From Pseudomonas deceptionensis (GTDB lineage: Bacteria; Pseudomonadota; Gammaproteobacteria; Pseudomonadales; Pseudomonadaceae): a stretch of DNA of 64,000 nucleotides. Position numbers and translations under genes: made by a program. Numbering within the stretch: the stretch's first letter is position 1; every line of letters begins with the position of its first letter. Below are positions 28,780 to 57,130 of the stretch, in pieces. The notes under the pieces are model-generated. The model did not search any database. It saw only the letters and a list, made by a program, of their open reading frames with translations, and had not been told where the DNA came from. The stretch lies in the NCBI RefSeq assembly GCF_900106095.1, contig NZ_FNUD01000002.1:2005501-2069500 (forward strand), read 5' to 3'.

Positions 28780-28883
28780 GCTGTGTTCCTTCAAGGAAGA
28801 GGTGAGCGCTCAGTCTAGTAGTGGTTTTTTAGCGCGATAAGCGCACTAATAGGCAACCTTTGGTTTTCATATGGAAACAATCC

Positions 28884-29792
28884 ATGAGCGAAATGGATGA
28901 TCTGGCGGCCTTCGCGGTGTTGATCGATGCGGGCAGTTTCACCTTGGCCGCCCAGCAGTTGGGCTGCAGCAAAGGGCAGCTGTCCAAGCGCATCAGTTTG
29001 CTGGAAGACCGGTTTTCGGTGGTATTGCTGCACCGCACCACCAGGCGTTTGAGCCTGACCGCTGCTGGCGCTGCGTTATTGCCCCAGGCCCAGGCATTGG
29101 TGGTGCAAGTGGAGCGGGCACGTCAGGCATTGGCCCGGTTAAAGGACGACATGGCCGGGCCGGTGCGTATGACTGTGCCCGTGTCCTTGGGCGAAACGTT
29201 TTTTGATGCGCTGTTGCTGGAGTTTTCCCGTGAATACCCAGAGGTGCAGATTGAGCTGGAGCTCAACAACAGTTACCGCGACATGGCACGGGAGGGGTTT
29301 GATCTGGCTATCCGTTCGCAGGTCGCCAGCCACGAACGGCTGGTGGCCAAGCCCGTGCTGAACTGGCACGAAGTCACCTGCGCCAGCCCGGTCTACCTTG
29401 AGCAGCACGGTGAGCCGACCACGCCGCAGCAACTGGCCGAGCATCGCTGCCTGCTCAACAGCCATTACAGTGGCCGCGAAGAATGGCAGTACCACCGCCA
29501 GCATGAATTGCACCGGGTGCGGGTGTCGGGACCGTTTGCCAGCAACCACTACAGTTTGCTCAAAAAGGCCGCAGTGATCGGCGCCGGCATCGCCCGTTTG
29601 CCCTCGTACATGCTCAATGCCGAATTGGCCGACGGGCGTTTATGCGGGTTGTTGCGTGACTATCAAACACGCAGTAACCCGATGTATCTGGTTCATCCGT
29701 ATCAAGGCGGTTTGCCCAAGCGCACGCAGGTACTGGCGGATTACCTTGTGGGCTGGTTCCAGCGCAGTGGTGAGGCAATCAACCAGCTTTAA
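28884..29792 (+). CDS. LysR family transcriptional regulator
   Basis: This 302-residue regulator has an N-terminal helix-turn-helix (MDDLAAFAVLIDAGSFTLAA, then LSKRISLLEDRF) and a C-terminal effector-binding domain starting GPVRMTVPVSLGETFFD. It belongs to the CrgA/YhjC-like group of LysR proteins. The divergent short-chain dehydrogenase gene, whose start is 104 bases away, is the most probable target. Its stop shares the sequence TTAA with the stop of the convergent doxX gene, a four-base overlap. Confidence 0.93.
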   Translation: MSEMDDLAAFAVLIDAGSFTLAAQQLGCSKGQLSKRISLLEDRFSVVLLHRTTRRLSLTAAGAALLPQAQALVVQVERARQALARLKDDMAGPVRMTVPVSLGETFFDALLLEFSREYPEVQIELELNNSYRDMAREGFDLAIRSQVASHERLVAKPVLNWHEVTCASPVYLEQHGEPTTPQQLAEHRCLLNSHYSGREEWQYHRQHELHRVRVSGPFASNHYSLLKKAAVIGAGIARLPSYMLNAELADGRLCGLLRDYQTRSNPMYLVHPYQGGLPKRTQVLADYLVGWFQRSGEAINQL

Positions 29793-30292
29793 CGAAAACG
29801 CCGGACGATCAGATGATCAATCGACAACACGCCGGGGCCTCTGGCCATCAGGTACAACAGTATTGCTGCCCAGGTGCCGTGGGTCGGGTAGGCGTCGGGG
29901 TATACGAATAGCTGAATGGTCAGTGTCATCCCCAGCAGTGCCAGCGCCGAGAAACGTGTGGCGAACCCCAGCAGGATCAGCACGGGGAAGAAGTGCTCAC
30001 TGAAGGCCGCGGCGTGTGCGGCAACCTCGGGTGACAGCAGCGGGACTTTGTACTCCGTACTGAACAAGTACACCGCGGAGTCCGCCAGGTGGGGGATGCC
30101 GGGTTCAAAGGTGCCGCTCACCAGGTCGATGGCCAAACCTTCGACCTTGGTCTGGCCCGATTTCCAGAACACCGCCGCAATCGAAAACCGAGCGACAAAG
30201 GCTATCAGCGAGTGGGGGATGCGTTGCATCAGCCCGATCGCACCCTCAAGCCAGCGGCGGAGCAGGGATGGCGGCGCAGAGTGGGTGTTCAT
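29789..30292 (-). CDS. DoxX family membrane protein (HvfX-like), end of bufferin operon
   Basis: This 167-residue DoxX-family inner-membrane protein has four helices. Typical segments are FSIAAVFWKSGQTKVEG, FSEHFFPVLILLGFATRFSALALLGMT and GTWAAILLYLMARGPG. DoxX proteins are regular members of bufferin (HvfABCX/BufABC) operons, where their job is unclear and may involve redox or membrane delivery. Its start overlaps the bufC stop by four bases. The operon ends here, convergent with and overlapping the LysR gene. Confidence 0.88.
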   Translation of the reverse strand: MNTHSAPPSLLRRWLEGAIGLMQRIPHSLIAFVARFSIAAVFWKSGQTKVEGLAIDLVSGTFEPGIPHLADSAVYLFSTEYKVPLLSPEVAAHAAAFSEHFFPVLILLGFATRFSALALLGMTLTIQLFVYPDAYPTHGTWAAILLYLMARGPGVLSIDHLIVRRFR

Positions 30293-31062
30293 GGCGAAAC
30301 CTCGCAGCAGGGGTGAAGACCAGTGATGGCGCCATGTGCAATCAACAGCGCCAGGGCCTGGCCCAGGTCAAAATCAGGGTCGGCTTCCAGGGCATGCTCA
30401 GCGGCCGGGCCCAGGCCATTGCCGTCTTTGATCAAGCGTACAAAAGCAGCGCACCCCGAGCTCACCGCAAACACCTCCACTCGCAAACCGTGGCGCAGCA
30501 CCAAGGTGCTTTGTGGCTGACGTGGGTCAAGCCCCTGGATCTGCCCTTGGGGCTGGTGAGCCGCCCACAAGGCGGCTATGGCGTAGGGCGAATGCATGGC
30601 TGCGACGCCGGGATGCAGTTGCAGGTGCAATTGGGCCAGGCCTTGCGGGTTGTTGAGCGCCCGGGCCAGTAATTGTGGGTTCACTGCGCACACGTCTGCG
30701 GCGTGAAAGGCCTGGACACACAAGCGTTCGAGGCGGGCGATATCGGACAGATAAGGCAGGCTGTCAGCGGGTGCAAAGCCCTTGATGAAGTCAGCGAACT
30801 GGCCGCCATAGGTGCTCATGACCGGGTTGTCGGGCGGGAATTTCGCAATGAACATCTGCGCCATGGCCTGAAAAAAGGCTTCACCGACCAACTGTGAAAC
30901 CACCGGGTAGCTGGTGGCCAGTGCGTTGATCAGGCCACTTTGCACATTGTTGCGATACACAGAGAAACGGCGGCCAACGTCGCCGTTGTTGGAGGTGATT
31001 CCGTCTGGGCAGAGTGCGTTTGGATTGAGCAGCGCTGCGCAGAAATCATCGTACATTTTCAT
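30289..31062 (-). CDS. bufC: BufC/HvfC-type partner protein (DUF2063 family)
   Basis: This 257-residue protein carries the DUF2063 domain in its first 100 residues (YDDFCAALLNP, RRFSVYRNNVQSGLINAL, YPVVSQLVGEAFFQAMA, PPDNPVMSTYGGQFADFI). DUF2063 proteins accompany DUF692 enzymes and act as recognition partners that bring the precursor peptide to the enzyme. Its start overlaps the bufB stop by four bases and its stop overlaps doxX, so translation is probably coupled along the operon. The assignment is strong by neighbourhood and domain. Confidence 0.9.
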   Translation of the reverse strand: MKMYDDFCAALLNPNALCPDGITSNNGDVGRRFSVYRNNVQSGLINALATSYPVVSQLVGEAFFQAMAQMFIAKFPPDNPVMSTYGGQFADFIKGFAPADSLPYLSDIARLERLCVQAFHAADVCAVNPQLLARALNNPQGLAQLHLQLHPGVAAMHSPYAIAALWAAHQPQGQIQGLDPRQPQSTLVLRHGLRVEVFAVSSGCAAFVRLIKDGNGLGPAAEHALEADPDFDLGQALALLIAHGAITGLHPCCEVSP

Positions 31063-31940
31063 GTTTGCACCTGTGCGCGGAGCAGGCAGTCATCGGCGAG
31101 TCGGGCTTCCTGTACCAGTTCGGCAAGTGCCGGCAGGCAGTTGTCGCGTTCGATCAGGGTGGCCGTGGGGCCCAATCGATCGAGCACCTGCCGGTACAGC
31201 GTCCATACCGCCTGATCGACCGGTGCGCCGTGGTTGTCGATCAGCAGGCGTTGACCCGGGTTGACCGTGTCTTCAGCAAAGCCTGCCAGATGAAGCTCGC
31301 CAACGGCCTGCAGCGGCAAGGCATCGATGTAGGCCAAGGGGGAGCGGGCGTGGTTTACGCAGGACACGTAGACGTTGTTTACATCCAGCAAAAGGCCACA
31401 GCCGCTGCGGTTGATGACTTCGTGGATGAAGCTGGCTTCGTCGAAGTGGGCCTCGTCGAACTCGATATAAGTTGCGGGGTTTTCCAGTAGGATCTGGCGC
31501 TGCAACAGGTTTTGCACCTGGTCCACATGCGCACAAACCCGCGTTAACGTGGCAGTGTCATAACGCAATGGCAGCAGGTCATTAAGGAAAAACGGCCCGT
31601 GGGAGGACCACGCCAGATGTTCGGAAAACATCTGTGGCTGGTAGCGATTGAGCAATATGCTCAAGCGTTTCAAGTGTTCGGTATCGAGCGGCTTTTCGCC
31701 GCCAATCGACAGGCCTACCCCATGGATCGAGAGCGGGTACTGCTCGCGGATCAGGTTCAGGTAGTGGTGGAAAGGCCCACCGGCGACCATGTAGTTCTCT
31801 GCATGTACCTCAAAGAACCCGACGTCAGGCCGGGTATCGAGTACATCCCGGAAATGCTCGGCCTTGAGCCCCAGCCCCGCACGCGGCGGAAGCTGGGGCG
31901 CGCGAGGCGCGATGAGCGAAGCAGGCAGGCTGTGCATCAT
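31059..31940 (-). CDS. bufB: BufB: multinuclear iron oxidase (MNIO, DUF692) for RiPP maturation
   Basis: This 293-residue TIM-barrel protein is of the DUF692 family. Known members use two or three iron atoms to oxidise cysteines in precursor peptides. Candidate metal ligands are all present: FEVHAENY, LSIHGVGLSI, EHLAW, LLLDVNNVYV, ELHLAGF, LIDNHGAPVD and IERDNCLPAL. The expected substrate is the Cys-rich peptide encoded 20 bases upstream. The start at 31940 (two consecutive ATG codons) is chosen because the longer frame runs through the bufA gene. Copper-chelating thiooxazole products are known for homologues. Confidence 0.92.
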   Translation of the reverse strand: MMHSLPASLIAPRAPQLPPRAGLGLKAEHFRDVLDTRPDVGFFEVHAENYMVAGGPFHHYLNLIREQYPLSIHGVGLSIGGEKPLDTEHLKRLSILLNRYQPQMFSEHLAWSSHGPFFLNDLLPLRYDTATLTRVCAHVDQVQNLLQRQILLENPATYIEFDEAHFDEASFIHEVINRSGCGLLLDVNNVYVSCVNHARSPLAYIDALPLQAVGELHLAGFAEDTVNPGQRLLIDNHGAPVDQAVWTLYRQVLDRLGPTATLIERDNCLPALAELVQEARLADDCLLRAQVQT

Positions 31941-31959
31941 CAACACTCGGCTACGCGGA

Positions 31960-32262
31960 TCAGGATTTGGCAGTGAACGCTTTGAGTTGGCCAAAACCGG
32001 TCGCAGAGGTGCTGCTGGCGGTTTTATCGCAGGTGCCTTTAGGGACCAGTTTCCAGGCATTGGCCTGGTTGTCTGTCTTGGCGGTGCCTGCGCAGGTAGT
32101 GCCTGCACCTGCCGCGCAATCGTTGTGGCCCTTCATGGCAACCCCGAAGCACTTCTCCATATCGCCAGCAGCCTGGGCGGGCAGGGCGGCAATGCTCAGG
32201 GCGGAACCCAGAGCAAGTGCCAATGCAGCGGCGGACAGGGTGCGGGTAGTTATGTTGTTCAT
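31960..32262 (-). CDS. bufA: BufA: bufferin precursor peptide (DUF2282), predicted copper-binding RiPP
   Basis: This 100-residue precursor has a signal peptide ending about residue 31 (IAALPAQA). Four cysteines follow at 38, 49, 57 and 78, in the DUF2282 pattern [20 protein letters not shown] and VPKGTC. In bufferins of other proteobacteria the central cysteines are converted to copper-binding heterocycles by the DUF692 enzyme and the product is exported to the periplasm. The ATG at 32262 has GGAG seven bases upstream. The 15-codon longer frame lacks this. It is first in a four-gene operon with bufB, bufC and doxX. Confidence 0.9.
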
Positions 32263-32307: not shown

Positions 32308-32335
32308 CTAGAGAGGCGAGATTGAAAGTTGTTAC
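32308..32335 (-). promoter_or_regulatory. Weak candidate ECF-type promoter for the bufferin operon
   Basis: On the minus strand GTAACA and CTCTAG are separated by 16 bases, about 45 bases before the bufA ATG. GTAAC-type minus-35 elements are common for ECF sigma factors, which control bufferin operons in Caulobacter. No sigma or anti-sigma gene is adjacent here, and the minus-10 match is poor. Confidence 0.2.
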
Positions 32336-32355
32336 AGCCAATTTGAATTATTTTA

Positions 32356-32498
32356 TGTAGCCGCTGAGGAGCGTAGCGAGGCTGCGATCGGTTTGGTGCG
32401 CCACTGCGACGCAGCAGTCGCAAAGCAAGATCACGCGGTCTATCAGGACATTAAGGTTTGCAGCCGATCGCAGCCTTCGTTCCTCGTCAGCGGCTACA
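32356..32498. repeat. 143-bp long-arm inverted repeat (Pseudomonas intergenic palindrome)
   Basis: The left arm 32356-32391 (TGTAGCCGCTGAGGAGCG...) and right arm 32464-32498 (...CAGCGGCTACA) are imperfect inverted copies of about 35 bases. They have the same ends as the elements at 7208 and 57024. It fills most of the gap between the bufA promoter region and the braG terminator. No gene is seen. Confidence 0.75.
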
Positions 32499-32518
32499 GA
32501 TTATGAGTCGTTTAACGA

Positions 32519-44189: not shown

Positions 44190-44331
44190 CCTCCCTGGTT
44201 TTCGCTGACCTGCGTCAACTATTCCCTCCAAGTCCGGGCTGGCCGTGGATCACTATTGATCCCGGTCAAGTCCTGCACCTGCGCGTGTGGTTAATCTGGC
44301 TTCAACACACAGACACGCACAGGAGGCCGTC

Positions 44332-44442
44332 ATGTTTCTCGATAATGTGGTTATCGCCGGGGTACTTACCGTCGGCCTCATGGTTTTGTTCTTTGCCGGT
44401 CTGGGCATTTTTATCTGGAAAGACTCCCAGAAGCGCAAATAG
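44332..44442 (+). CDS. ccoM: 36-residue single-helix membrane protein, CcoM-like (cbb3 oxidase subunit)
   Basis: This small gene has a strong binding site (AGGAGG, five bases before the ATG) and encodes MFLDNVVIAGVLTVGLMVLF followed by a short rest ending WKDSQKRK. One hydrophobic helix is followed by a basic tail. It closely resembles, from memory, CcoM of P. stutzeri, a single-helix subunit that stabilises the cbb3-type cytochrome c oxidase and is encoded away from the ccoNOQP operon. It is followed by a terminator. The coding call is strong. The CcoM name is an inference needing a direct comparison. Confidence 0.72.
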   Translation: MFLDNVVIAGVLTVGLMVLFFAGLGIFIWKDSQKRK

Positions 44443-44482
44443 CGCCGAGTCTTTACGGGGTATGAGCACGCAAGGCATTTTG

Positions 44483-44507
44483 GGCGACTTCGGTCGCCTA
44501 TTTTTTT
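44483..44507 (+). terminator. Terminator after the CcoM-like gene
   Basis: A stem GGCGAC / GTCGCC with loop TTCG is followed by TATTTTTTT. It is 40 bases after the stop. Confidence 0.85.
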
Positions 44508-44540
44508 GCCTGTGTGTTTTGTCTACAGCGTGAATTCCTC

Positions 44541-57023: not shown

Positions 57024-57130
57024 TGTAGCCGCTGCCGAGGTACGAGGCTGCGATAAGGACCGAAGGGCCTTCAAAAACCAGGGCTGCTGCGCACCCCGTC
57101 GCAGCCTCGCTGCGCTCCTCAGCGGCTACA
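57024..57130. repeat. Pseudomonas long palindromic intergenic repeat
   Basis: TGTAGCCGCTGCCGAGG at the left matches the inverted right end ...CTCAGCGGCTACA, and the middle carries GCTGCGATAAGG and CGCAGCCTCGCTGCGC. It is the same family as those at 7208 and 32356. It lies between pcaC and the terminator. Confidence 0.75.

Follow-up and report, generated by a model that had tools for sequence, protein, structure and literature searches.

A 64,000-nucleotide stretch of Pseudomonas deceptionensis DNA (the window; the genome that holds it, G000, measures 5.1 Mb) carries a compact minus-strand operon, bufA-bufB-bufC-doxX, at 29789-32262, whose products mark it as an operon for a bufferin, a ribosomally synthesized and post-translationally modified peptide (RiPP), and which is preceded by what looks like a promoter for an extracytoplasmic function (ECF) sigma factor. 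The first gene, bufA (31960-32262), encodes a 100-residue Buf1 (DUF2282) precursor that scores 85.9 bits with the Pfam DUF2282 model against a cut-off of 22.4. It is followed by bufB (31059-31943, with an alternative ATG start at 31946), which encodes a 294-residue enzyme of the MNIO family, formerly DUF692 (344.1 bits with Pfam MbnB_TglH_ChrH; 376.8 with NCBIfam MNIO_BufB, cut-off 310), by bufC (30289-31062), which encodes a DUF2063 partner protein of 257 residues (Pfam 85.7 bits against 27.2), and by doxX (29789-30292), which encodes a DoxX-family membrane protein of 167 residues (Pfam DoxX 57.8 bits). Four-base ATGA overlaps join bufB to bufC (31059-31062) and bufC to doxX (30289-30292), and bufA is separated from bufB by 13-16 bases, depending on the bufB start chosen. 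A match of four family profiles in the canonical order is far beyond chance. An earlier note, made from the letters of the window, had proposed a bufferin-type RiPP operon with these genes and these boundaries, and the family profiles, gene order, overlaps and cysteine pattern bear it out. By its sequence, the operon is a Buf1 bufferin operon of an already described kind and one more member of a large known family.

The precursor has the four cysteines (residues 38, 49, 57 and 78) of the DUF2282 pattern that had been read from it, and exactly four cysteines occur in 44 of the 46 precursors collected. Its first 31 residues (32170-32262, minus strand) form a predicted Sec-type signal peptide, judged by eye from the translation on the basis of a basic n-region, a hydrophobic stretch and a cleavage site AQA/A at 31/32. 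The stretch bounded by the two central cysteines spans 32092-32118 on the minus strand (Cys49 codon 32118-32116, Cys57 codon 32094-32092, both included), and by analogy with the Buf1 description in PMC12452194, both residues are expected to become thiooxazoles. BufB had been credited with all candidate metal ligands; this is borne out in part, in that N189, N190, D236 and H238 are the same in all 43 BufB sequences aligned. They appear to match, by motif rather than by structure, the residues N175, D242 and H244 that are described as essential in HvfB (PMC13419390). The BufA2 family model gives BufA 21.5 bits, below its cut-off of 60, and gives a Pseudomonas Buf2 peptide 95.7. A genome search of G000 yields one DUF2282 match and one MNIO match; because there is a single MNIO match, a Buf2 operon is not expected in this genome. 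No relatives of BufA were found among viral contigs, and solved structures gave no match for BufC and no convincing one for BufA.

What looks new is the regulation of the operon, that is, a conserved promoter and a distant sigma factor, rather than the operon itself. The predicted ECF-type promoter of bufA, TGTAAC-N16-TCTCTAG, lies at 32308-32336 on the minus strand (-35 element 32336-32331, -10 region 32314-32308) and ends 45 bases ahead of the bufA start codon. It had been overlooked by the earlier note, and its presence suggests that a sigma/anti-sigma pair is encoded elsewhere in the genome. A literature search, mostly outside subscription papers, returned no description of this promoter or of such a sigma factor for bufferins. 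In G000, allowing up to one mismatch gives the bufA site only, and a reversed control pattern gives six sites.

Across 298 Pseudomonas genomes, 177 of which have a DUF2282 match, 113 sites carry the exact motif; they are spread over 97 genomes, 16 of which have two. Sequence was examined for 66 of these sites, namely 30 initial ones and 36 selected later for not lying near a listed DUF2282 match, so that Buf2 is over-represented among them. All except one (in G180, where the next gene is neither type) precede a bufferin gene, 43 of Buf1 and 22 of Buf2 type. The other 47 sites, known by coordinates, each begin at a distance of 186-310 bases from where a DUF2282 match starts. The Buf2 operons with the motif are unlinked to Buf1, and their bufferin gene is followed by a gene for a protein of about 394 residues, which may correspond to the methyltransferase of Pep2. 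Spacing is fixed in the 65 bufferin-linked sites; the tract upstream of them averages 75% AT, and their -10 region does not resemble that of sigma-70.

The 30 best-scoring DUF2282 matches of the 298-genome search, all of which have bufA-bufB-bufC in this order, fall into two clades. Clade I (12 of 30 loci) includes the window operon and has BufB proteins 66-79% identical to the window BufB, for which P. psychrophila and P. fragi are named relatives (83% identity each); ten of the 12 operons stand after livF. Clade II (18 of 30) is 44-46% identical to the window BufB. The exact motif, with a varying spacer sequence, precedes bufA in 11 of 16 clade-I rows; the others differ by one mismatch (L003), two (L008) or four to five (L019, L020, L025). 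A search for an autoregulated ECF gene found the full motif at none of the G000 ECF loci L038-L067, after which the -10 region was redefined, TCTCTAG giving way to a TC core at N18. The resulting TGTAAC-N18-TC form fits the window promoter, since N16 plus the first TC of TCTCTAG makes N18 before TCTAG, and is present in 14 of the 16 clade-I rows. Twenty further places were fetched deliberately, mostly clade-I matches without the exact motif. Five of them (L187, L188, L189, L192, L193) proved not to be clade I and one (L191) had the exact motif; one mismatch was present in L175, L179, L186 and L190, the spacer was one base shorter in L174 and two bases longer in L178 and L180, and nothing resembling the motif occurred within 170 bases in L177, L181 and L183.

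The two clades also differ in the genes around them. A profile search found no adjacent ECF gene in any of 14 clade-I neighbourhoods (the window, L003-L005 and L068-L077), and found one divergent from bufA in seven of ten clade-II neighbourhoods. The profile was built from 25 G000 ECF loci, at least four of which (L038, L052, L054, L061) were in the wrong reading frame; it still detected the seven clade-II genes, and a missed ECF is possible. Another 20 motif loci of 14 kb each likewise contained no ECF gene that could be found. The absence of an adjacent sigma factor and the single precursor, both called unusual at first, are thus usual for the clade, in which every locus read has one precursor. 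Clade II carries GTAACC-N16-CGAA in 15 of 17 rows (L013 among them), the element reported for Caulobacter sigma-F (PMC3511200), a form that the window promoter (TGTAACA...TCTCTAG) does not fit. No match to NrsF (PF06532) was found in G000, and a close G000 paralogue of the clade-II ECF was sought and rejected, as the best matches reach only about 31% identity.

The likely reader of the bufA promoter, judging from sequence comparison, is an unlinked ECF with a zinc-finger partner. This candidate (L059, G000 C2:4352135-4352746) lies about 2.3 Mb from the bufA operon, and the gene for a 75-residue zf-HC2 protein, its putative anti-sigma factor, overlaps its 3' end. A naming of the candidate as a homologue of PA3285 was dropped; PMC8999054 puts PA3285 in ECF293 and predicts PvdS control. 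Scored at E <= 1e-40, the candidate is present in 179 of the 298 genomes: 96 of the 97 with the motif have it, as do 83 of the 201 without the motif. The sole motif-positive genome that lacks it (G035) is an assembly in 530 contigs. Two control ECFs are less specific: L046 is found in 89 of 97 motif-positive and 132 of 201 motif-negative genomes, and L057 in 49 of 97 and 41 of 201. Of the 30 genomes that supplied the fetched DUF2282 loci, the candidate occurs in 11 of the 12 whose locus is clade I and in 5 of the 18 whose locus is clade II.

Linkage is stronger evidence than co-occurrence, because shared ancestry could explain such counts. The Azotobacter chroococcum plasmid pAcX50e, the best-ranked plasmid match to the window BufB, has the gene order bufA-bufB-bufC-doxX-ECF-zfHC2-msrP. 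Compared with 30 sigma-like G000 loci, the Azotobacter ECF ranks L059 first (39.7% identity, 142 bits, followed by AlgU with 75 and SigX with 52), and the two zf-HC2 proteins are 41% identical. On the Pseudomonas aeruginosa plasmid pPALO11 the order is KASIII-ECF-zfHC2-hypothetical precursor-DUF692 (MNIO)-DUF2063-DoxX-porin, with an ECF 70% identical to L059 and a hypothetical protein that has many EGSCG motifs and no Pfam match. The order KASIII-ECF-zfHC2 recurs in G000 and G196 with no MNIO or bufC-like genes nearby. Among 30 loci of this ECF class fetched across the order, an MNIO gene lies within about 1.5 kb in three (L210, L213, L227; Pfam confirms L213 and L227), and a DoxX gene is present in at least three (L215 by tblastn, L199 and L203 by Pfam). 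The peptide genes of the ECF-zfHC2-MNIO loci L229, L227 and L210 encode EGSCG- or EGKCG-rich proteins rather than DUF2282 proteins, and that of L213 is Buf2-like; the ECF class is therefore linked to several precursor families. In a different setting, a plasmid of Stutzerimonas stutzeri (L230, 4914-5654) has an ECF 41% identical to that of Azotobacter within a mercury resistance operon, flanked by merA and merD.

The same promoter form accompanies this class. TGTAAC-N18-TC stands before the precursor or next gene in pPALO11, L227, L213, L215 and L199 and before the Azotobacter bufA, with a spacer of N19 in L210, and none was found before the next gene at L203. Within a 750-base stretch that begins at about the end of the zf-HC2 gene, it occurs on the coding strand in 11 of 30 loci and on the other strand in one. 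The window bufA promoter thus has the form found beside the zf-HC2-linked ECF class.

Gene content and order, the cysteine pattern, promoter conservation, co-occurrence and the linkage of the ECF class to MNIO genes together favour, with moderate confidence, a Buf1 operon that makes a periplasmic copper-binding peptide and is transcribed from an ECF-type promoter most likely read by a distant ECF held by a zf-HC2 protein. Several observations weigh against it. The exact motif is missing from five of the 16 clade-I rows, and in L003 and L020 not even the core is present; the reversed pattern was matched 30 times, in 26 genomes out of the 298, so that chance matches are not negligible. The candidate is also present in the 83 motif-negative genomes noted above, the control L046 is enriched too, though less, and the co-occurrence is confounded by shared ancestry. 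No such motif precedes the candidate locus itself in G000 or G196, and the sole match in G108 falls inside the ECF gene. The Azotobacter ECF is only about 40% identical to the candidate; the 11 motif-positive ECF loci include near-identical ones and amount to about eight independent ones, the other 19 have no motif downstream, and the motif occurs in 5 of 30 loci within a larger control area upstream that takes in both strands of the first 1450 bases.

The alternative that survives best, itself rather doubtful, is an ordinary Buf1 operon whose promoter is read by another shared sigma factor, such as SigX, AlgU or a further ECF, and with which the zf-HC2 ECF merely co-occurs. Since SigX and AlgU are core genes, their co-occurrence would be trivial; the genomes with the motif may belong to a single lineage; and the missing motif at the candidate's own locus fits as well. 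Set against this are the neighbourhoods of the G000 genes that we take to be SigX (oprF lies downstream) and AlgU: no MNIO or bufC gene was found in 3 kb around either, whereas the zf-HC2 ECF class repeatedly adjoins them. Moreover, the AlgU consensus given in PMC7641640 is GAACTT-N16/17-TCTNN, not TGTAAC. The SigX consensus is called "not precisely defined" in the same source, and none was discernible for the operons studied in PMC3875570.

A second alternative accepts the operon and questions its product, which might serve mainly for protection from oxidants or other metals, or for action against competitors. The Azotobacter ECF pair adjoins msrP, whose product MsrP is the same protein as YedY. 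YedY is in the Caulobacter sigma-F gene list (PMC3511200), and the two together hint at a response that also covers oxidant damage. A search of the literature on chlorite gave nothing of use. In P. fluorescens, Pep1 is the cluster most strongly correlated with suppression of Streptomyces scabies, a link that is a correlation only (PMC8719888). A characterised Buf1 bufferin, by contrast, chelates copper (PMC12452194), and it is from such relatives that copper binding by BufA is expected. A main function other than copper handling is regarded as unlikely. Least probable is a housekeeping sigma factor with a copper-responsive activator of two-component or MerR type, of whose box TGTAAC would be a part: TGTAAC-like half sites occur in known copper boxes and the spacing permits a weak sigma-70 reading by eye, but the 65 sites combine fixed spacing and an AT-rich upstream tract with a non-sigma-70 -10 region, and 15 of 17 clade-II rows carry the sigma-F form.

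Under control by the distant zf-HC2-held ECF, the proposed sequence of events would be as follows. The 75-residue zf-HC2 anti-sigma would hold the sigma factor until metal or thiol-oxidising stress frees it, possibly through displacement of zinc by copper or through thiol oxidation. The freed ECF would start bufABC-doxX transcription at the TGTAAC-N18-TC promoter. BufA would be made with its Sec signal, and BufB with BufC would oxidise C49 and C57 to thiooxazoles in the cytoplasm; subsequently, after export, the outer cysteines C38 and C78 would form a disulphide, in keeping with the Buf1 description, which has the modification on the two central cysteines and a disulphide between the outermost ones (PMC12452194). 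HvfBC depends on the partner protein for its active iron state (PMC13419390), and BufC likely does the same for BufB. Cleavage at AQA/A would leave a mature peptide of 69 residues, 6884.2 Da in unmodified form, which would then bind excess copper in the periplasm via its thiooxazoles, with DoxX as a membrane accessory. Each thiooxazole should lower the mass by about 4 Da and the disulphide by 2 Da, and the product should absorb near 305 nm, as related products do (PMC12668002).

These findings bear on how Buf2 operons and sigma-less Buf1 operons are switched on: a published survey reports sigma factors and NrsF from Buf1 clusters and not from those of Buf2 (PMC12452194). Control of Buf1 and Buf2 together by a sigma/anti-sigma pair in trans is a well-supported prediction from sequence. 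In a wider form, for which the odds are judged somewhat better than even, Pseudomonas Buf1 and unlinked Buf2 would constitute one regulon: a shared promoter type would be recognised in trans by an ECF whose anti-sigma is a cytoplasmic zinc-finger protein, and linked relatives of this ECF show the arrangement in cis in Azotobacter, on pPALO11 and at chromosomal loci with Buf2-like and EGKCG/EGSCG-type precursors. If so, MNIO peptides would have a second control system that is independent of NrsF, and the soluble zf-HC2 protein could plausibly sense copper or oxidants in the cytoplasm. As the prediction names a single sigma factor and a promoter of 29 bases, bufferin regulation becomes directly testable.

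Other features surround the operon. A LysR-type regulator gene (28860-29792, plus strand) converges on doxX with a four-base overlap at the stop codons, so that a terminator would not fit between the two genes; in 11 of 14 clade-I loci a similar LysR gene lies beside doxX. Three clade-II loci (L082, L085, L028) have a LysR gene upstream of the bufferin operon, L082 and L085 with no adjacent ECF and L028 with no GTAACC-N16-CGAA, and perhaps the regulator has changed there. Between bufA and livF, an imperfect inverted repeat (32345-32509), the inner stem of which is perfect over 13 bases, resembles a repetitive extragenic palindromic (REP) element, part of which is copied at 57095-57117 with three mismatches. 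The PhrS small RNA is encoded at 44294-44508 (plus strand; full-length Rfam match, 179.6 bits). Beyond Pseudomonas, BufB is matched by 73 Escherichia plasmid records, and the E. coli plasmid pHN32_1 (L198, IncF) has bufABC-doxX behind a TetR gene.

Compared with known systems, the window operon shares its four gene families with the Buf1 operons of Caulobacter (buf1) and with the Cupriavidus and Legionella GIG operons, and its four-cysteine, Sec-signal precursor with Buf1. In Caulobacter, the locus numbers of the buf genes adjoin those of sigma-F and its DUF1109 (NrsF) regulator (PMC3511200); the window operon differs in having no adjacent ECF, no NrsF in the genome and another -10 region. Pep1 of P. 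fluorescens, with its DUF2282 peptide, DUF692, DUF2063 and DoxX proteins, has the same gene set, and a comparison by the Pep1 gene list alone revealed no difference (PMC8719888). The likeness to the HvfABCX (oxazolin) system, with which the operon had initially been grouped, extends to the MNIO enzyme, the DUF2063 partner and a DoxX-like protein. That grouping did not hold, as the HvfABCX precursor is an EGKCG repeat and the window BufA, a DUF2282 protein, has no EGKCG, and as the NCBIfam models HvfC (39.8, cut-off 142) and HvfX (36.2, cut-off 80) score far below their cut-offs. The closest regulatory parallels are pAcX50e and pPALO11, whose ECFs, 40% and 70% identical to the candidate, form the same gene pair with overlapping ends; on both plasmids the pair is linked to an MNIO operon, whereas in G000 the two lie about 2.3 Mb apart.

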